DNA of 64,000 nucleotides from Adonisia turfae CCMR0081 (lineage in GTDB: Bacteria > Cyanobacteriota > Cyanobacteriia > Phormidesmidales > Phormidesmidaceae), in contig NZ_QXHD01000004.1 of assembly GCF_011009555.1 (NCBI RefSeq), positions 1,454,047 through 1,518,046 of the forward strand, given 5' to 3'. The notes under the pieces were generated by a model. It was given only the letters and a program-made list of their open reading frames with translations, was not told the origin of the DNA and made no database searches. Every line of letters starts with the position of its first letter. Position 1 is the stretch's first letter. This document shows, piece after piece, positions 52,468-64,000 of this stretch. Both the position numbers and the translations under genes were made by a program.

Positions 52468-53124
52468 ATGCGACTCTCGACATACTCCCCTACCCCACAG
52501 GTAGTTACACCTGCGACGCATCCTTCAGTGCGTAGTAAACGTAAGCGCCTTATAGATATAGTTGGTGCTTTGCTGGGTTTAACGATTACCTCTATCTTAT
52601 TTTTGCCAATAGTAATAGCAATTCGCTTAGATTCCGCTGGTCCCATTTTTTATAATCAACAACGATGTGGATTAAAGGGTAGGCAGTTTAAGATTTGGAA
52701 ATTCCGTTCGATGGTGACGAATGCAGATAGCATGAAGCACCTGGTCAAGAATGAAGCTGCTGGACACATCTTCAAAAATCGGAATGATCCTAGAATCACT
52801 CGTGTAGGACAATTTTTAAGAAAAACAAGCTTGGACGAACTGCCACAGTTCTTTAATGTATTAAAAGGCGATATGAGCCTGGTCGGCACCCGTCCGCCTA
52901 CCTTTGAGGAAGTCGAACAGTATTCTAGATACCATTTCCAGCGGTTGAATGTCAAACCCGGCATTACGGGTGAGTGGCAAGTTTATGGACGCTCTAATGT
53001 AGAAAACTTTGACGAAATTGTGCGGATGGATCTCAATTATCAGAGAAAATGGTCAATAACTTATGATCTTCTACTAATCTTGCAAACGTTCGCTGTTGTT
53101 TTTAACAGACAGGGAGCATACTAA
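52468..53124 (+). CDS. Polyprenyl-phosphate sugar phosphotransferase (undecaprenyl-phosphate glycosylphosphotransferase)
   Basis: A 218-aa member of the bacterial sugar transferase family, which transfers a sugar-1-phosphate to undecaprenyl phosphate and so starts exopolysaccharide assembly. One membrane helix (RLIDIVGALLGLTITSILFL) is followed by the catalytic region: GPIFYNQQRCGLKGRQFKIWKFRSM, LRKTSLDELPQFFNVLKGDMSLVGTRPP, and VKPGITGEWQVYGRS. The protein is the short form, without an N-terminal multi-helix domain. It lies 166 nt upstream of the lasso-peptide genes; whether it belongs to that cluster is unclear. Confidence 0.92.
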   Translation: MRLSTYSPTPQVVTPATHPSVRSKRKRLIDIVGALLGLTITSILFLPIVIAIRLDSAGPIFYNQQRCGLKGRQFKIWKFRSMVTNADSMKHLVKNEAAGHIFKNRNDPRITRVGQFLRKTSLDELPQFFNVLKGDMSLVGTRPPTFEEVEQYSRYHFQRLNVKPGITGEWQVYGRSNVENFDEIVRMDLNYQRKWSITYDLLLILQTFAVVFNRQGAY

Positions 53125-53289: not shown

Positions 53290-53598
53290 ATGACTTCTCA
53301 AACATTAAAAATATCGCCAACATCAATGATCTCACCTGCACAGAACCAAATTGCCTCTGAATTAGGTGGTGAAGCGGTGATTCTAAACTTAGAGTCAGGC
53401 ATGTATTATGGCCTGAACGAAGTAGGCGCAAGTGTTTGGGAATTTATTCAAAAGCCATGTACATTCGCCAGTATACTTGAGCACTTACTGGCAGAATATG
53501 ACGTACAACCCGACATTTGCGAGCATGATCTAAATACAATTCTCTCAGAAATGCAGCATGCCCACCTGATTGAGGTGAGTGATGAAACAGTTGAATAA
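53290..53598 (+). CDS. PqqD-like RRE protein, lasso-peptide leader binding (B1)
   Basis: A 102-aa PqqD-family protein acting as the RiPP recognition element: it binds the precursor leader and presents it to the B2 protease. LGGEAVILNLESGMYYGLNEVGASVWEFI is the PqqD core, and LLAEYDVQPDICEHDLNTIL follows as usual. It is the first gene of the lasso operon, and its stop overlaps the start of the B2 gene, so the two are translated together. Confidence 0.88.
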   Translation: MTSQTLKISPTSMISPAQNQIASELGGEAVILNLESGMYYGLNEVGASVWEFIQKPCTFASILEHLLAEYDVQPDICEHDLNTILSEMQHAHLIEVSDETVE

Positions 53599-54025
53599 TC
53601 TCCTAAGACTTTCAGGAGTTGAGCGACGAGTTTTACTCTACGCATGTCTGTTGCTTAATGGAATTCGATTGGCTCTGTGGTTGTTGCCTTTCAATATGGT
53701 CAGGCAAAGAATATCGCGCCTTGCTTCTGTGTGGGTATGCCATAACTTGACTTCCCCTGTTTCCGTAGGAAAGATTGTCTGGAGTGTTGATATTGCCAGT
53801 CGCTATACCCCAGGCGGGGCAATGTGTTTAGTGCGGGCATTAACAACCCAGCTACTCTTAACTCGCTACGGGTATACGCACCAATTCCACATTGGTGTTG
53901 CCAAGAGTGAAAACGGTAATTTGACTGCCCATGCTTGGATTGAATACAAAGGACGAGTCATTGTTGGTGGTCTACATAACTTGAGTCAATTTAAACCGCT
54001 TTCTGCTGTAGGAGCGAAGCAATGA
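53582..54025 (+). CDS. Lasso peptide B2 protein (transglutaminase-like leader peptidase)
   Basis: A 147-aa cysteine protease of the McjB C-terminal type that removes the leader peptide. The fold is seen in RYTPGGAMCLVRALTTQLLL (catalytic Cys) and FHIGVAKSENGNLTAHAWIEY (catalytic His in AHAW), with hydrophobic N-terminal helices (LLYACLLLNGIRLALWLLPF). The ATG at 53582 is preferred to the GTG at 53579, with GAGG 6 nt upstream. It overlaps the B1 stop and its own stop overlaps the cyclase start (ATGA). Confidence 0.88.
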   Translation: MKQLNNLLRLSGVERRVLLYACLLLNGIRLALWLLPFNMVRQRISRLASVWVCHNLTSPVSVGKIVWSVDIASRYTPGGAMCLVRALTTQLLLTRYGYTHQFHIGVAKSENGNLTAHAWIEYKGRVIVGGLHNLSQFKPLSAVGAKQ

Positions 54026-56040
54026 GTGGCATTGTAGGGATTTACCATCTCGATCAACGTCTAGTGGAATCCAGTGATCTGCATCAGATGGTAGATATCT
54101 TGGACCATCGCGGACCTGACGGATCTGACACCTGGTATCGAGAATCCATCGGTCTTGGCCATTGCATGCTATGGACAACGCTAGAATCACTCCATGAACA
54201 GCTACCTTTAGTTAAGGGTGATTTAACTATCACTGCAGATGCTCGCATTGATAACCGAGATGAACTAGCCCAGGTTCTGACCTTACCCGATCGACCTTTA
54301 GAAAAGGTGACTGATAGTGAGTTTATCTTGGCAGCCTATGAAAAATGGGGGAGTGATTGCCCTGAACATTTACTAGGGGATTTTGCTTTTGGCATTTGGG
54401 ACGGACAAAAGCAGCAGCTATTCTGTGCCCGCGACCATTTAGGTGTGAAGCCGTTTTATTATTTTCATCAAGAAAGTAACACGTTTGCATTTGCATCAGA
54501 GATTAAAGGATTGCTTTGCCTAGACTGGATTCCTCAACAAATTAATGAGGTGCGTATTGCCGACTATCTAGCCCTGATGTTCGAGGATAAGGTAGTTACT
54601 ACCTTTGAGAATATTTTTCGGTTGCCCCCTGCCTCCAGACTATGGGCAGACGCTTCAGGCATTAGAGTTGAGACCTATTGGCAACTCGATTCAAACTATG
54701 AGTTAAAACTAGAATCAGATGATGCCTATGCAGAAGCTTTCCGTGAGATTTTTATTGAAGCGGTCAGGTGCCGCCTAAGAAGTGCTTTCTCAGTTGGTTC
54801 CCATCTCAGTGGTGGTTTAGACTCTTCTTCTGTTAGCTGTGTAGCCCGTAAAATCCTAAGTGAAACAACAGGAGAAACACTTCATACGTTTTCAAACATT
54901 TTTGACACGGTCAAAGAATGTGATGAACGTTCCTATATTGATGAAGTCCTAAAACAGGGTGGTTATACCCCCCACTACATTCATGCCGATGCATTTGGCC
55001 CTTTAACGGATGTGGAGCAGATTTGGAACTATGAAGATGAGCCAATCTTAGGTCCCAGTCATCATTATCCCTGGCGCTTAAATCAGGCGGCCCATGAAGA
55101 AGATGTACGCATCGTTTTTGACGGCTTTGACGGAGATTCCGTCGTATCCCATGGCCTAGATCGGTTACGAGAGTTAGCATTGCAGCAAAAATGGTCAGAA
55201 TTTGCAGAAGCTATAGAAGTTGCCAGCAAAAATTATAAATTTTCTGTTAACTACATGCTGACGTATTATGGGTTGCCAGCTTTGAGGCAGCTAAGTACGC
55301 AAGGACAGTGGTTCGGCTTTCTTAAAGCGGTTAATTACATTCACCATCGCTTTCAATACTCACGGCGTAGTTTACTAATTCGACAAGGTATTAAGCCAAT
55401 TTTCAACAAGGTTTTACACAAACTTGATCGAACGCCAAAGAAGTCAGTCGATAATTTAGGTAAGGCAAGAGAAATAATAAACGCTGATTTTGCAGAACAG
55501 ATTCATCTAAAGGAACGAGTTCGGAGATACACTCCTAAACCGGTTTCTCCAGGAACGGTGCGGCAGGAGCACTGGCAGTCAATGACAGGAGGTGTAATGG
55601 CTGTGAACCTTGAGGCAGTGGATCGTTGTGCAGCCGCCTTTGGATTAGAGGCACGCCACCCATTTTTAGATCGTCGGTTAGTTGAATTCTGTCTAGCTGT
55701 TCCATCTGACCAAAAATTCAGGAGAGGATTTGGGCGGATGATTATGCGTCAAGGCCTGAATGATATATTACCCCCAGCAGTCCAATGGCGGGGTGATAAA
55801 GCTAATATGACTGCTAATTTTGTAAATGGGTTACTCAATATTAATCGCCCATTATTTGAGCAAGTACTTAATAAGTACAGTTACTCTGTACTTAGATACG
55901 TTAATCTTGACGATTGGGAGAATGCTTGGCATCGAATAAAGCAGTATCCTGAATCAAAGAAAAAAGTGAGTTCAACCACTCAGGACTGTTTTATGGTGTG
56001 GCGAGCAACAGTTCTAGCGCTTTGGTTTCAGCGTATGTAA
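54022..56040 (+). CDS. Lasso peptide macrolactam cyclase (asparagine-synthetase-like, C protein)
   Basis: A 672-aa ATP-dependent cyclase that adenylates the side chain of an Asp or Glu and joins it to the core peptide's N-terminus. The N-terminal glutaminase-like domain begins MSGIVGIYHLDQRLV, with Ser in place of the catalytic Cys2 of asparagine synthetases, so it cannot hydrolyse glutamine, as is usual for lasso cyclases. The PPi-synthetase motif SHLSGGLDSSSVSCVAR is near residue 262, and RHPFLDRRLVEFCLAVPSDQK follows. Start overlaps the B2 stop by 4 nt. Confidence 0.93.
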   Translation: MSGIVGIYHLDQRLVESSDLHQMVDILDHRGPDGSDTWYRESIGLGHCMLWTTLESLHEQLPLVKGDLTITADARIDNRDELAQVLTLPDRPLEKVTDSEFILAAYEKWGSDCPEHLLGDFAFGIWDGQKQQLFCARDHLGVKPFYYFHQESNTFAFASEIKGLLCLDWIPQQINEVRIADYLALMFEDKVVTTFENIFRLPPASRLWADASGIRVETYWQLDSNYELKLESDDAYAEAFREIFIEAVRCRLRSAFSVGSHLSGGLDSSSVSCVARKILSETTGETLHTFSNIFDTVKECDERSYIDEVLKQGGYTPHYIHADAFGPLTDVEQIWNYEDEPILGPSHHYPWRLNQAAHEEDVRIVFDGFDGDSVVSHGLDRLRELALQQKWSEFAEAIEVASKNYKFSVNYMLTYYGLPALRQLSTQGQWFGFLKAVNYIHHRFQYSRRSLLIRQGIKPIFNKVLHKLDRTPKKSVDNLGKAREIINADFAEQIHLKERVRRYTPKPVSPGTVRQEHWQSMTGGVMAVNLEAVDRCAAAFGLEARHPFLDRRLVEFCLAVPSDQKFRRGFGRMIMRQGLNDILPPAVQWRGDKANMTANFVNGLLNINRPLFEQVLNKYSYSVLRYVNLDDWENAWHRIKQYPESKKKVSSTTQDCFMVWRATVLALWFQRM

Positions 56041-56164
56041 AGACATTTGCTTGTCAAGACAAACGTTAATCTTGGCGGGTTAGGAAATATATCCCTGACT
56101 GTAAGTCCAAACCAGGGGGGTATCACCAACTGTTAACTCAACTAATGTAATTAGAGGTCCTACA

Positions 56165-56359
56165 ATGACTAAGAAAGCATATACTCAGCCTAGCCTGACA
56201 GCTTACGGTAGTGTAGAAAAACTAACTAAAGCTAATGGCTCTATCAATCTTGCGGATGTCTTCATCCTATCTAACCTACCTGGCGAGCAGCCTGATCCAG
56301 TTGAAGCTGTAGGCCAGGGCTCTATAGATATCGAGATCGATGTTGAAGGTGCAATCTAA
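56165..56359 (+). CDS. Lasso peptide precursor with long acidic core
   Basis: A 64-aa precursor. The leader MTKKAYTQPSLTAYGSVEKL is followed by Thr-Lys; it carries the leader motif YxxPxLxxxGxxxxxT exactly (Y6, P9, L11, G15, T21). Since the conserved Thr is normally the penultimate leader residue, the core should start at Ala23: ANGSINLAD, placing Asp31 at core position 9 for a 9-membered ring. The remaining 33 residues have seven acidic and no basic residues. The predicted core is 42 aa, against a usual 15-26. RBS AGAGG precedes the ATG. This is inferred from sequence, not observed. Confidence 0.8.
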   Translation: MTKKAYTQPSLTAYGSVEKLTKANGSINLADVFILSNLPGEQPDPVEAVGQGSIDIEIDVEGAI

Positions 56360-56498
56360 TCGCGTTAGCTTACAAAAGCTAACCAACATGGAACTATCGA
56401 TGTTGAAGAGGCCATAATCTTTTTCAATTTGATTGGTCTGGATGGTTAGCCATTAGCTATTGATGATTTTGAATCTATAGATTCGGAGATCTCCATCG

Positions 56499-56527
56499 AA
56501 GCTTAGCCTCTGAGGCTAAGCTTTCTG
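56499..56527 (+). terminator. Terminator after the precursor gene
   Basis: AAGCTTAGCC (56499-56508) and GGCTAAGCTT (56514-56523) form a perfect 10-bp stem, extended by TC/GA, followed by TTTCT. It would end the precursor transcript; on the minus strand the following A-rich run is weaker. Confidence 0.7.
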
Positions 56528-56528
56528 A

Positions 56529-56825
56529 CTAATTGTTGGGAGGATCTAGTAGGCGATAAATTTCTTGCTGTTCATATTTGTTAAAGGCCGATGGGAGATT
56601 CTCTCCTATAACCTTAGCGATGTATTGAATAGATTCGAAATGCATTCTTATTAGATCCCCCTTCTCCATCATACTTTGGTAGATGCAAACATAGTGAATA
56701 GGTATCTCATTAATCTGTAATAGAAAATATTCTGGCACTTTGTTGCAAAACTGTATCTCACGTCTAAATAGACGTATTTTTGCTAAATCATGTACTGTTA
56801 TTCTGCTTATCAGCTGTGCCTCCAC
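56529..56825 (-). CDS. Possible small protein antisense to the kinase start
   Basis: A 98-codon minus-strand frame between the precursor terminator and the kinase. Its C-terminal half (MHFESIQYIAKVIGENLPSA, then YEQQEIYRLLDPPNN) has a natural amino-acid mix and no low-complexity bias, but I recognise no family. It overlaps the first 36 nt of the plus-strand kinase gene. A start at an internal Met is possible. It may simply be a chance frame. Confidence 0.3.
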   Translation of the reverse strand: MEAQLISRITVHDLAKIRLFRREIQFCNKVPEYFLLQINEIPIHYVCIYQSMMEKGDLIRMHFESIQYIAKVIGENLPSAFNKYEQQEIYRLLDPPNN

Positions 56826-57668
56826 TCAGAAATTCCGCTGTCGGGACTGCCTAGTGCTAACGGTGAGCCAGATGTCATTGTCCGTTTAAAGGATTCTAAA
56901 GAACATCCTGCTCCTGACTTGAGCAATCCAGCACAGGATATTCGGGGTCGACTAGCAGGGATAGGAAAATGTCGAATCTCAGATGGAAAGTTTATTACTA
57001 TCACTCCGTTTGAGGGAGTTACCCATGAGATGATTGATCCCAATGTTTTAGGGGGCTGTATGTCGGTTATTCTAAGACAGCGCGGGTTCCTAGTTCTACA
57101 TGCAAGCAGCGTTGCAGTACAAGGTAACGTAGTCGCTTTTTTAGGGCATTCTGGTTGGGGAAAATCCACTCTGGCTGCAGCACTGCATACCCATGGCCAC
57201 AGTGTGATTACCGACGATGTCTTGGCGATTAGTTTAGAGGATATTGAGAATCCTATAGTGGTTCCATCGTTTCCTCAATGTAAGCTTACTCCGCAAGCTG
57301 CCAGCGCATTGGGTAAAGATCCGGCTAGCTTAGAATTTCTCTACGCCCACTCTTCTAAACGGGCCTATCACTTTCAAACGGGATTTCAACAAGAGCAACT
57401 TCCATTACAAAGTATTTATCTTTTATCCAAAGGCGATAGCCACAGTATCATCCCCCTGGGTTTCATGGATGCATTTGCATATTTGGTGAGCCATACCCGT
57501 GCTATGGATGTGCTGCGAGATAACCAATCCTTAAAGGTCCATTTTCAACAATGTACCCAATTGCTTAAACAAGTGTCATACTACCGGTTTACTCGGAAAC
57601 CTGGTTTAGAAGAATTGCCGGATTTAGTGCGAATGGTAGAGGAACATGTGCAAGAACCATCTATTTAA
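56790..57668 (+). CDS. HPr-kinase-like protein of the lasso cluster
   Basis: A 292-aa kinase-fold protein. LHASSVAVQGNVVAFLGHSGWGKSTLAAAL (Walker A near residue 119) and GHSVITDDVLAISL are characteristic of the HPrK/P-like kinases found in lasso clusters, where paeninodin-type relatives phosphorylate the core's C-terminal Ser. Here the predicted core ends ...IEIDVEGAI with no Ser or Thr at the terminus. Either another residue is modified (for example Ser53) or the tail is cut first. It begins after a terminator, 430 nt beyond the precursor gene. Confidence 0.85.
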   Translation: MYCYSAYQLCLHSEIPLSGLPSANGEPDVIVRLKDSKEHPAPDLSNPAQDIRGRLAGIGKCRISDGKFITITPFEGVTHEMIDPNVLGGCMSVILRQRGFLVLHASSVAVQGNVVAFLGHSGWGKSTLAAALHTHGHSVITDDVLAISLEDIENPIVVPSFPQCKLTPQAASALGKDPASLEFLYAHSSKRAYHFQTGFQQEQLPLQSIYLLSKGDSHSIIPLGFMDAFAYLVSHTRAMDVLRDNQSLKVHFQQCTQLLKQVSYYRFTRKPGLEELPDLVRMVEEHVQEPSI

Positions 57669-57688
57669 CCACTAGGGGTTAACCTACC

Positions 57689-59506
57689 GTGCAATTTGCT
57701 AAGCCATTAGCGGCATTCTTTAAGAAAACCCAGCGATTGATGCCAGCTTTGCGCCTGGTTTGGCGTAGTAGCCCTGGCTGGACCATGGCTAAACTTAGCT
57801 TATTGGTAATTCAGGGGTTACAGCCACTGCTGCAAATCTATCTAATCAAGCTATTAGTTGATGTCGTGACAACTCAATCTGAGTTGACCACATCACCACA
57901 GTTTTTCAGTCAAAATAAATTGCTATTTATCGGACTGGCTGTGGTCTTACTGGTTGGCATGATAGCAACTTCACTCTCAGAGCTAGTCACATCGTCACAA
58001 TCTCAAAAGGTCTCTGACTACATGCGGGGTATTTTGCATGCTAAGTCCATTGAGATTGATCTTAGCTATTATGAGAACCCGCGTTATCACGACACATTAC
58101 AGCGGGCTCAGCAAGAAGCAACTTATCGCCCTAATCAGATTCTAAAGCGGCTGGCGCTGGTTGGCCAAAACGGTATTTTATTGGTTGCCATGGTGGGTTT
58201 GTTATTAACCCTCCATTGGGGTATCACTAGCGCCTTATTAGTTGCAATTATTCCAACCGTATTGGTTCGGCTACACTATACGCGTAGATTATATGCTTGG
58301 CAGCGTACCTGGACCCCTGTCGAACGGAAATCAGCGTATCTTTCTTGGTTGTTGATAGGGGATCAGTTTGCCAAAGAAATTCGCTTGTTTGGCTTAGGTG
58401 ACCTATTTAGTCAGCGGTTTAATGGGCTGCGATCGCAAATTTACCACGCCAAGCTCAAACTAATGACATGGCGTTCACTCTCGTTTTTAGCTGCCAATGT
58501 CATAGCAGGGGTGATGGTTGGTGCAATTTATGCCTTTATCCTCTATCAAACGTTTCAGGGCATATTAAAGCTTGGGGATCTTGTACTTTACCATCAGGCA
58601 TTACAGCGAGGTCAAAAGGGGCTCAAATCATTTATTGCTGGACTCTCCGGACTGCATGAAGACAATCTATTTCTAGCAAATCTATATGAATTTCTAGATT
58701 TAAAATCCCAGATTGTGACACCAGCACAGCCCAAATTCTGCCCCCCTGTAAAAGCGCAGGGCATTACGTTTGAGAACGTTAATTTCCAGTATGAAGGAAC
58801 GTCTCGACAAGCACTTCAAGATATATCTTTCAATATCAAACCTGGAGAAACCATTGCTCTGGTAGGAGAAAACGGTTCAGGTAAGACAACACTGATTAAA
58901 TTATTATGTCGCCTGTACGATCCGACTGAAGGACGAATCACACTGAATGGCATCGATCTGCGAGATCTCGATGTTCCCCATTTGCGACAACAGATTAGTG
59001 TTATTTTTCAAGACTACGCTAAATATAATCTTTCAGCCCAAGACAACATTTGGTTAGGTAATGTTCAGCTGCCGCTGGACGATCAACTTATTATCGAAGC
59101 TGCTAAACATGCAGGAGCCCATGAGGTCATTACCCAGTTACCCCATGGGTATGACACTATGTTAGGCAAATTATTCCAGGGTGGAGAAGAACTTAGTATT
59201 GGTCAGTGGCAGAAGGTTGCCTTAGCCAGAGCTTTCTTACGTCAGTCTCAGGTGATTGTTCTAGATGAACCCACCAGTGCCATGGACCCCAAGGCTGAGT
59301 ACGAACTTTTTAGTAGGTTTCGTGAGTTAATTCAAGACCAGTCAGCAATTTTAATTACCCATCGTTTGTCTACAGTCAAAATGGCTGATCGTATTTATGT
59401 CATGGACAACGGCAAACTCATAGAAAACGGTACACATCAAGAGTTAATGGAGAAACAGGGAAATTACGCCCATTTATTTGAAATTCAAGCTAAAAACTAT
59501 TGGTAG
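57689..59506 (+). CDS. ABC exporter (McjD-like) of the lasso cluster
   Basis: A 605-aa fused permease-ATPase of the ABCB type, the usual exporter and self-protection factor in lasso clusters. The membrane part spans about residues 1-330. The ATPase domain contains IKPGETIALVGENGSGKTTLIKLLCRL (Walker A near residue 392), the signature LSIGQWQKVALARAF, Walker B IVLDEPTSAMDP and the switch-His region AILITHRLSTVKMADRI. It starts at a GTG (57689), 20 nt after the kinase. Confidence 0.92.
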   Translation: MQFAKPLAAFFKKTQRLMPALRLVWRSSPGWTMAKLSLLVIQGLQPLLQIYLIKLLVDVVTTQSELTTSPQFFSQNKLLFIGLAVVLLVGMIATSLSELVTSSQSQKVSDYMRGILHAKSIEIDLSYYENPRYHDTLQRAQQEATYRPNQILKRLALVGQNGILLVAMVGLLLTLHWGITSALLVAIIPTVLVRLHYTRRLYAWQRTWTPVERKSAYLSWLLIGDQFAKEIRLFGLGDLFSQRFNGLRSQIYHAKLKLMTWRSLSFLAANVIAGVMVGAIYAFILYQTFQGILKLGDLVLYHQALQRGQKGLKSFIAGLSGLHEDNLFLANLYEFLDLKSQIVTPAQPKFCPPVKAQGITFENVNFQYEGTSRQALQDISFNIKPGETIALVGENGSGKTTLIKLLCRLYDPTEGRITLNGIDLRDLDVPHLRQQISVIFQDYAKYNLSAQDNIWLGNVQLPLDDQLIIEAAKHAGAHEVITQLPHGYDTMLGKLFQGGEELSIGQWQKVALARAFLRQSQVIVLDEPTSAMDPKAEYELFSRFRELIQDQSAILITHRLSTVKMADRIYVMDNGKLIENGTHQELMEKQGNYAHLFEIQAKNYW

Positions 59507-59550
59507 AGGTAGTATCTATTATTTGATTTTCAATTAACTACTTTAGAGCT

Positions 59551-60759
59551 GTGAGTACTTTAAGAATAACTGAGCTAAATCCAGAAATCTCATTTCTACT
59601 AAAATGCGCCAGAGTATATCTGAATATTGATGACCCGTGCGAGATTAACCAGCTAATCCAACAAACCAGCTTAAACTGGGATGAAGTCATTAAAATGGCG
59701 CAGGTTCATAGGGTATTGCCCATACTCCATAAGACTCTTACTCTAGTATCCCCACAGGAACTGCCAGATTTTGTCCTGCCAAAGTTACATCAACTACACT
59801 TTAAAAATATTAAACGTAACTTTTTTCTATTACAAGAGCTCATTAGATTTTTAGATATCCTAAAAAAGCATCAGATTGATGCAATTACATTTAAGGGGCC
59901 AATGACCGCAATGGTTGCCTATGGCGATTTATCATTGCGCACCTTCTATGATCTAGATTTACTAGTACATTCCCATGATTTTTTTAAACTTAGAGATATT
60001 GCCAAAAATCATGGTTATACGTGTGATTTGTTGATGGCGAAAGAAGAAAGAGAGTGTTTGACTAAACTTAGCTTTCAAGACCAAGAACTATATTTCAACT
60101 CACAAAAAGAGTATAGTTTAGTGAATGCCAAAAATCGTATTTTTCTTGATATTCATCAAGGAGTTTTATCTAAGCAATTCTCCCCATTATTTAACACTCA
60201 ATGGATTTGGGAGCACACTCAGCAGGTTAAAATCGGAGGACATCAAGTCTTAGGTTTGACACCAGAGGTTCAGATACTTGTGTTATGCGCACAAGGTGTT
60301 GAAGATTGCTGGAATCATCTAGGTAAGCTTTTTGATGTTGCAATCTTGATCAAGAACCACCCTGATTTAGATTGGGATCAGCTAGTGAAACTATCAAAGC
60401 AGATGGATGTGCTTCCTAGGCTTTTATTGGGACTGTGTTTGATTCGTCAACTATATGGGTTCACTTTGCCCGACCAGATTGAACAGCCGTTGCAGAATTG
60501 TACCTTTATTCAAAAACTTGCTGAGGCATTACAACGACAAATAATACTAAAGAGTAATATAAATTCTAAGTCAAAGTTAGATCTTCTCAACGCTGCATAT
60601 CAACTGCGGCTTATGAGCCAGTGGAAAAATCGTATTAAATTTATCCTAACGCTTATGCAGCCGACTCTTGCAGATATCGCTACAGTATCGCTGCCTAAAT
60701 CTTTATTCTTTATATATTATTTATTGCGACCCTTCCGGGTGATGCAACTTAGCAAATAA
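59551..60759 (+). CDS. Nucleotidyltransferase family protein (NTP_transf_5-like)
   Basis: A 402-aa protein with a nucleotidyltransferase-like core: LLQELIRFLDILKKHQIDAI, FKGPMTAMVAYGDLSLRTFYDLDLLVH (the DxD metal site in YDLDLLVH), and INQLIQQTSLNWDEVIKMAQ toward the N-terminus. It belongs to the group (PF14907-like) found in several lasso clusters, where its target is not known. It starts at a GTG 44 nt after the exporter, in the same operon. The C-terminal part, hydrophobic and Leu-rich, may contact the membrane. Confidence 0.8.
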   Translation: MSTLRITELNPEISFLLKCARVYLNIDDPCEINQLIQQTSLNWDEVIKMAQVHRVLPILHKTLTLVSPQELPDFVLPKLHQLHFKNIKRNFFLLQELIRFLDILKKHQIDAITFKGPMTAMVAYGDLSLRTFYDLDLLVHSHDFFKLRDIAKNHGYTCDLLMAKEERECLTKLSFQDQELYFNSQKEYSLVNAKNRIFLDIHQGVLSKQFSPLFNTQWIWEHTQQVKIGGHQVLGLTPEVQILVLCAQGVEDCWNHLGKLFDVAILIKNHPDLDWDQLVKLSKQMDVLPRLLLGLCLIRQLYGFTLPDQIEQPLQNCTFIQKLAEALQRQIILKSNINSKSKLDLLNAAYQLRLMSQWKNRIKFILTLMQPTLADIATVSLPKSLFFIYYLLRPFRVMQLSK

Positions 60760-62358: not shown

Positions 62359-63036
62359 ATGCAAAAATACATTCTAACAGGTGCCCTGTTTGCAAGTACT
62401 TTAGCTGCAAGTTTTCTGGCACAAGCTGATTCCGCAAACGCTGCTTCTATTACATATAACTTCAGAAGATTTGACGTACCGCTTCTAATTGATGTTGCAC
62501 CATCCAGTTTTACAGTTGATGGTCTAACTGTAGATGTAAGTGGTAATGGTGTCGTCACTCAGACTGCTGACGGTTTGGGTTTGGCCAGGGTCCTAAGCGT
62601 TGCTCCTCCTGAACAGGTGGATGGCCTTGCCTTAAACGGTCCAGACTTCCTGGATTTTGACTTTGGTAGTCGGTTTGTAAACATTGTCTCTGCTACGTTC
62701 CGACGTGTTGGTACCAATGTGCCTATTGATGAGGTAGGTGAAGTTGGTAACGATGACTTTAGTCTGGCGGTTGACGGTAACTCTGTTATCGAGATCGCTG
62801 ATATCCCTGGTGGTAATGGCCTTGACTCCGGTATAGGCACCTTTGACTTTACGCCCCTACTATTGCCTAGTGGTAATGTTTGGAGATTTAGTGCTCCTGA
62901 GCTGGATGATGACTACACCATTGCCAGTTTGACGGTCACTAGTGAAGAAATTCCCACTCCAGCTGTGTTGCCTGGTTTGATTGGTATGGGTGTTGCCTTT
63001 ATGCGCAAGCGACGTGGTGAAGCCGCTGATGCCTAA
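62359..63036 (+). CDS. PTPA-CTERM secreted protein
   Basis: A 225-aa exported protein with a signal peptide (MQKYILTGALFASTLAASFL, then AQADSANA). The mature region, beta-rich with many Asp/Gly/Val (FRRFDVPLLIDVAPSSFTVD, LNGPDFLDFDFGSRF, VDGNSVIEIADIPGG), resembles the generic extracellular PEP-CTERM family. The tail PTPAVLPGLIGMGVAFMRKR is a PTPA-CTERM sorting signal nearly identical to that at 49339-49860. It converges with the exosortase gene, whose product is the likely sorting enzyme. Confidence 0.85.
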   Translation: MQKYILTGALFASTLAASFLAQADSANAASITYNFRRFDVPLLIDVAPSSFTVDGLTVDVSGNGVVTQTADGLGLARVLSVAPPEQVDGLALNGPDFLDFDFGSRFVNIVSATFRRVGTNVPIDEVGEVGNDDFSLAVDGNSVIEIADIPGGNGLDSGIGTFDFTPLLLPSGNVWRFSAPELDDDYTIASLTVTSEEIPTPAVLPGLIGMGVAFMRKRRGEAADA

Positions 63037-63311: not shown

Positions 63312-64000
63312 TTATCCGCTCATCTGTCGAGACTGAGACTTCATTAGTGCCTCAACAATATAGTAATAAGCCGTAAACAAAACGCCCGAGAAAATTTGAC
63401 CACCCCAAAAACCATGCCAGAATTTAAACCACTCTGGTCCCCAATACACATGGGCAATGGTTACCAACATGAGTCTGGGCACATTAGCGATCATGGCAAT
63501 GATTGCAGCAGCGATAATTAACAGCACCATTTGACGGCGATCTTGTTTGTACAACAACCCCATAAATAAACCTGCTGCGGCAATGGTAATTGCCATATCT
63601 AACCCATTACACCCCCAACCTACTTCCACAGCTCCTTCAGGAAATGTGATAAAGATGCCCTGCTGCGTTGCTGGGAATCCAATCCACTGCATTGATTGTG
63701 TGCCTGCCCAGGCCATAACTTTCTCTAATCCTTGATCAGGAACGAAAAAGTCCCACAGCCCCCGAGAAATAATGCCAATGCGAGGATATACGGTTAAACC
63801 AATAAAAAAGGTTGGCAGCATAAACTTGTTAAAGACTTTAAGCCCCCAGGTACTACAGGCCATACCGATAATAATAAGTAGCCACAATAACGCTTGGGGC
63901 CACATGGCAAATCGACAAAATGGGAATACAACTATGCCGACAACAATTAATAAATAGCCTAAAGCTCGATCTTCTTCCGATGCTTTTAAGGTGCTAAACA
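63312..64000 (-). CDS. Exosortase (cyanoexosortase family), N-terminus outside the window
   Basis: A polytopic membrane peptidase of the exosortase type; the visible ~229 residues continue in frame to the window edge (SEEDRALGYLLIVVGIVVFP), so the start is not in view. The catalytic Cys is in EVGWGCNGLDMAITIAAAGL, the Arg in IANVPRLMLVTIAHVYWG, and the His in FWHGFWGGQIFSGVLFTAYY, in the order Cys-Arg-His that defines exosortases. These enzymes cleave PEP-CTERM-like tails during export. The PTPA-CTERM gene next to it, and the one at 49339, are likely substrates. Confidence 0.85.
   Translation of the reverse strand, partial: FSTLKASEEDRALGYLLIVVGIVVFPFCRFAMWPQALLWLLIIIGMACSTWGLKVFNKFMLPTFFIGLTVYPRIGIISRGLWDFFVPDQGLEKVMAWAGTQSMQWIGFPATQQGIFITFPEGAVEVGWGCNGLDMAITIAAAGLFMGLLYKQDRRQMVLLIIAAAIIAMIANVPRLMLVTIAHVYWGPEWFKFWHGFWGGQIFSGVLFTAYYYIVEALMKSQSRQMSG

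Follow-up and report, generated by a model that had tools for sequence, protein, structure and literature searches.

Does a lasso peptide with a predicted core of 42 residues keep its whole tail, and what might such a tail be for? This question is raised by a gene block at positions 53290-60759 of a 64,000-nucleotide stretch of the cyanobacterium Adonisia turfae CCMR0081 (contig NZ_QXHD01000004.1, positions 1,454,047 to 1,518,046; hereafter the window, to which all coordinates refer). A first-pass annotation had described the block as a lasso-peptide cluster with an unusually long, acidic core, and left it between trimming of the tail by a further protease and a new long-tailed class. The analysis reported here favours the latter, and it is considered reasonably probable that the block specifies a functional long-tailed lasso peptide whose full tail would be retained and whose Ser31 would be phosphorylated, perhaps phosphoglycosylated.

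Family profile searches resolved the block into seven genes on the forward (+) strand, with a leader-recognition element, a leader protease and an ATP-dependent macrolactam synthetase adjoining a precursor gene. B1 (53290..53598) is a PqqD-like recognition element of ribosomally synthesized and post-translationally modified peptides, leader-binding by family, which matched PF05402 (5.5e-18) and NF033536 lasso_PqqD_Bac (2.6e-22; 78.8 bits for a cut-off of 80) and, in phmmer searches, the lasso PqqD chaperone of PDB entry 9x90 (2.3e-14) and TbiB1 (5v1u). B2 (53579..54025), a transglutaminase-like leader protease, scored above the cut-off of NF033537 (6e-29), matched PF13471 and retains Cys83 and His118, both invariant across 101 B2 homologues. 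The lasso cyclase C (54022..56040), an asparagine-synthetase-like macrolactam synthetase, reached 1036.6 bits against NF033535 lass_lactam_cya (cut-off 525); its N-terminus reads MSG, Ser replacing the amidotransferase Cys2, and its HLSGGLDSS motif is intact. These are followed by the precursor gene A (56165..56359; 64 residues), a predicted HprK/PEPCK-fold peptide kinase (56790..57668; TIGR04352 6e-9 and PF07475 3e-6, neither reaching its cut-off), an ABC exporter (57689..59506; PF00005 and PF00664) in which the profile search found no C39 peptidase domain, and an NTP_transf_5 nucleotidyltransferase (59551..60759; PF14907, 3e-48), a PsmN-like candidate enzyme for phosphoglycosylation. Judged from its gene content, its leader and core features and the intact cyclase and B2 residues, the block is a complete lasso-peptide gene cluster, which confirms the first-pass annotation; the claim that all core enzymes are present was even understated, the kinase and nucleotidyltransferase having gone unnamed.

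The precursor carries the annotated leader pattern YxxPxLxxxGxxxxxT as an exact match, within a 22-residue leader (56165..56230, +) that has Thr at -2 and Lys at -1. The core boundary was set by the Thr(-2) rule, which upholds the nine-membered ring proposed earlier, ANGSINLAD (Ala1-Asp9; 56231..56257, +), and places an acidic residue within core positions 7-9 as expected of a lasso precursor; Asp9 recurs in 71 of 87 long cores of the family described below. The predicted core, ANGSINLAD-VFILSNLPGEQPDPVEAVGQGSIDIEIDVEGAI, has 42 residues, and a recount of the 33-residue tail (56258..56356, +) agreed with the seven acidic (D/E) and no basic (K/R/H) residues first noted. With its motif region the core reads ANGSINLAD-VFILSNLPG...QGSIDIEIDVEGAI, where GSID (56318..56329, +) represents a conserved G-S-x-D motif with Ser31 as the proposed phospho-acceptor, followed by a distal stretch of alternating I/V-D/E. 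The core ends in Ile, not in the C-terminal Ser acceptor of paeninodin-type peptides, and it lacks Cys, hence also the tail-tail disulfide of class IV (pandonodin). The precursor fell short of the curated cut-off of NF033528 lasso_cyano (30.2 for 33 bits; E 3e-7). Homologues adjoin the same cyclase in other cyanobacteria, and a congeneric genome carries a 94%-identical copy in which core changes are limited to linker residues 24, 25 and 27; relative to the closest congener, only synonymous changes affect the ring and the last 13 residues.

The long core is not a one-off. The cyclase family was present in 44 of 390 searched genomes of the class, and from 40 fetched loci plus 79 from named genomes (two overlapping sets) 122 distinct precursors were extracted beside related cyclases, of which 87 have cores of 30-58 residues and 35 shorter ones, related sequences being counted as separate. 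Long cores come mostly from one cyanobacterial cyclase clade: in the cyclase tree, which like the kinase tree below is a quick build with Shimodaira-Hasegawa-like approximate likelihood ratio test (SH-aLRT) support only, a single branch (SH-aLRT 93) unites 49 long-core rows, the window among them, and the large group opposite is mostly short. In a motif set of 59 nonredundant long cores, residue 1 is Ala in 21 and Val in 14, then Ile, Phe or Leu, so that Ala, taken at first for an uncommon residue 1, is the commonest in the family, and Gly3 occurs in 49. The shared pattern opens with [AVIL]xG(x5)D9; hydrophobic residues (L/F/V, F/I, F) follow as a block, often with N14-G15 behind them, and a variable linker then leads to [G/D]-S-x-[D/N]. 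GSx[DN] was found in 38 of the 59 tails, for a mean of 2.8 and a maximum of 9 in shuffled sequences, and 14 diverse long members, when aligned, all have the Ser and Asp of S-x-D. All 14 also match NF033528 (E down to 1.2e-20), a model of 35 positions that covers the leader and core start only. The ratio of nonsynonymous to synonymous polymorphism (pN/pS), pooled over 33 close, non-independent pairs, was 0.18 in the leader, 0.30 in the motif, 0.59 in the ring block, 0.65 after the motif and 0.82 in the linker. The length of the tail is therefore a family trait; its acidity, which the annotation had also pointed out, was rejected as the key trait and is lineage-specific, the median family tail having three acidic residues and one basic. 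Two variants of the precursor stand apart: in five related genomes (loci L180-L184, L158 and L159), several long-core precursor genes stand in tandem arrays whose leaders are nearly identical while the cores vary, which makes them a combinatorial set of natural origin, and locus L195 encodes three precursors with the same kind of leader and cores of long RGG repeats (..PPRGGRGGRGGRGG..). To our knowledge, these RGG-repeat cores are unlike any known lasso core.

Whether the tail is kept can be approached through cysteine. Among 70 long cores, 36 have no Cys and 34 have two, never one or three, and all 66 Cys of motif-bearing cores fall after the motif Ser, the other two belonging to one core without a motif match. 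After removal of redundancy (n = 58), 33 cores lack Cys and 25 have two, where independent placement predicts 21 single-Cys cores. A held-out set of 391 genomes of another order, obtained later and restricted to sequences <90% identical to the first set, gave 22 long cores, of which 12 lack Cys and 10 have a pair; 18 of 18 Cys lie past the motif. The nonredundant count is only 11 and 4, respectively, because many two-Cys cores are paralogues. Paired Cys past the motif point to a tail disulfide, as in pandonodin, and to a retained tail, so that across the family the distal tails probably carry a disulfide and stay on the product instead of being trimmed. Together with the S-x-D motif and a pN/pS below 1 all along the tail, this pattern argues for the long-tailed class. 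As for trimming, a survey of neighbouring genes in about 90 loci found no recurrent protease; the genes that do recur nearby are mostly of exopolysaccharide type or look like open reading frames called in a wrong frame. For the window peptide itself, retention is suggested by its likeness to Cys-bearing relatives.

The kinase and the nucleotidyltransferase give the tail its likeliest function. Of the 64 long loci, 62 encode an HprK-like kinase, as do 23 of the 26 short ones. A C-terminal Ser is found in 9 of 87 long cores versus 22 of 35 short ones (Fisher p 9e-9), and the internal motif in 54 of 87 long cores and 1 of 35 short ones. In the kinase tree, well-supported branches (98) set 50 long-class kinases apart from every kinase of the short class. 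As sequence searches of the PDB gave weak matches only, the structure of the window kinase was predicted with AlphaFold2 (predicted local distance difference test score 89.5) and compared using Foldseek, which matched PEPCK and HprK/P at probability 1.00; the protein retains His104, the P-loop G-x-x-G-x-G-K-S with Lys125, and Asp142-Asp143, the full His-Lys-Asp-Asp set. PadeK and PsmK are known to phosphorylate the precursor at its C-terminal Ser, and in pseudomycoidin PsmN adds a hexose to that phosphate (PMC9266682). Because a C-terminal Ser is rare and the internal motif frequent in long cores, the kinase tree is split and the kinase residues are intact, it is probably the conserved tail Ser, Ser31 in the window, that the kinase of the cluster phosphorylates. 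The NTP_transf_5 protein, encoded in the cluster as in the pseudomycoidin system, may by analogy be a sugar-adding, PsmN-like enzyme. A separate observation in the short class concerns clusters L062, L063, L064 and L065, in which the kinase is kept though the cores end in Ala, Val or Gly, not Ser.

In the biosynthetic route proposed here, and as judged from their families, B1 would bind the leader, B2 would cut after Lys(-1), and the cyclase would join Ala1 to Asp9 round the threaded chain. The 33-residue tail would stay in the product, the HprK-like kinase would phosphorylate Ser31 of G-S-x-D, probably on the precursor as PadeK does, the NTP_transf_5 protein may put a sugar on the phosphate as PsmN does, and the ABC protein would export the product. 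About half of the relatives would form a disulfide in the part past the Ser, where the window peptide has its alternating I/V-D/E stretch instead. More broadly, and with slightly less than even confidence, it is suggested that a sizeable and coherent family of two-part lassos is present in cyanobacteria, which would be the longest natural lassos known. In these, a 9-residue ring would carry a tail of 21-49 residues that is kept and has a structure of its own (with a disulfide, or acidic and beta-like), and an internal S-x-D Ser would be tagged by a kinase lineage distinct from that acting on C-terminal Ser.

Other fates of the tail and other sites of phosphorylation have to be weighed. The tail could be a removable C-terminal follower: after guiding the kinase, the cyclase or export, it would be cleaved off close to the GS motif, and the remaining lasso of 25-31 residues would, like paeninodin, end in Ser. 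Cleavage at the motif Ser would yield family products of about 23-40 residues (31 in the window) with a C-terminal Ser, as in the short class (22 of 35), the highly variable length past the Ser fits this reading, and carboxypeptidases are known to shorten lasso tails (PMC13352647). However, Cys confined to the part past the motif and always paired would be pointless in a discarded segment, neither a recurrent protease in the loci nor a C39 domain in the exporter was found, and the distal tail pN/pS of 0.65 is close to that of the ring block, so that a follower is considered unlikely, if a serious alternative. Distinctly unlikely, too, is a kinase directed at a Ser within the ring or loop (Ser4 or Ser14 in the window core), with the SxD motif recognised by the exporter or cyclase: BsfK phosphorylates the ring/core Ser3, meaning that such kinases can target another Ser (PMC10368454), but Ser/Thr at any ring position is present in at most 29 of 71 long cores, versus S/T-x-[D/N/S] in 69 of 71 tails.

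The ring itself could be misplaced, if cleavage were shifted so that the conserved Gly3 became residue 1 of a 7-residue Gly-Asp ring. This is suggested by Gly3 in 49 of 59 long cores and by a Gly-to-Asp spacing equal to that of many short-class precursors (Gly2...Asp8), but the conserved Thr would then lie at -4 and not at -2 as expected of B2 substrates, and in many known lassos residue 1 is not fixed; a shifted ring is regarded as very improbable. A silent or defective cluster, or a linear product, is judged quite improbable. Probable decayed precursor copies do adjoin the precursor gene, as direct repeats of its 3' end at 56396-56415 (85%) and 56474-56491 (83%; span 56396..56491, +) that are short and could be chance; their frame reads ..DDFESIDSEISIEA* in the window and in the congener, and the degenerate copies in 56360-56510, between the precursor and kinase genes, are probably relics of a second precursor gene. 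All frames of the cluster are nevertheless open, catalytic motifs are intact, genes are 94-97% conserved in the congener and core changes are confined to the linker.

Several points weigh against a retained, phosphorylated tail even so. The case is built on genes and sequence comparison, and the best argument for retention comes from relatives because the window core lacks Cys. The length of the distal tail past the Ser ranges widely (4-27 residues), and hardly any constraint acts on the linker. Asp9 is itself a filter of the motif set, and the shuffle and pooled pN/pS figures overstate independence because the sequences are related. The co-divergence of kinase and core may come from shared descent alone, and the nucleotidyltransferase is present in only 38 of 64 long loci.

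The surroundings add a 12-bp perfect hairpin (inverted repeat; 56499..56523, +) between the precursor and kinase genes, and a bacterial sugar transferase just upstream of the cluster (52468-53124); lasso clusters often adjoin exopolysaccharide-type genes (loci L031-L149), and a Wzz/tyrosine-kinase-like protein recurs in 35 lasso loci. Further downstream (62359-63036 and 63312-63905), a gene for a protein whose C-terminus resembles PEP-CTERM neighbours an exosortase gene (PF09721, 5.5e-35).

Retention of tails of this length would almost double the range of tail lengths known for natural lassos, and would make cyanobacteria a source of dozens of natural lassos with an extra peptide domain attached, of use in engineering tail fusions. 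Ser choice by lasso kinases can also be tested directly in this family, as one lineage faces a C-terminal Ser and its sister an internal S-x-D. In the literature searched, with most subscription papers outside its scope, no characterised cyanobacterial lasso peptide or biochemistry was found, and neither the architecture common to the family nor the Cys rule nor the kinase/core split seems to have been described. NF033528 lasso_cyano and the NF033535 cyclase share leader and cyclase family with the window, whereas the tail motif and the Cys rule lie outside the NF033528 model, and the window is 3 bits under its cut-off. The kinase-tailored Firmicute lassos paeninodin and pseudomycoidin share split B1/B2, the HprK-like kinase and the ABC exporter, and pseudomycoidin also the nucleotidyltransferase. 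Paeninodin has an Ala1-Asp9 ring and an acidic tail, as predicted for the window; the cores of both are about 23 residues long with the phosphate on a C-terminal Ser, whereas the 42-residue window core has no C-terminal Ser and a conserved internal SxD. A related B. cereus precursor reads T-M-AGPGLKTPD (PMC7533575). Long predicted cores as such are not new, having been published for rumen Firmicutes (PMC7533575) and for one cyanobacterium, where a genome paper mentions a 36-residue cleaved lasso (PMC9332814). The rumen lassos of Butyrivibrio and Lachnospira, likewise predictions, have cores of up to 42-44 residues, a conserved Ser near the C-terminus and an HPr kinase and nucleotidyltransferase in their clusters (PMC7533575), but their leader and core sequences differ and the Ser lies in a Ser-Gly context, not G-S-x-D. 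The annotated range of 15-26 residues for most known cores is fair for characterised peptides, among which the proteobacterial class IV lasso pandonodin has the longest tail, 18 of 33 residues in total (PMC13352647). A long tail is thus shared with pandonodin, and its tail-tail disulfide is the one proposed for about half of the cyanobacterial relatives, whereas the tail predicted in the window has 33 residues and no Cys.

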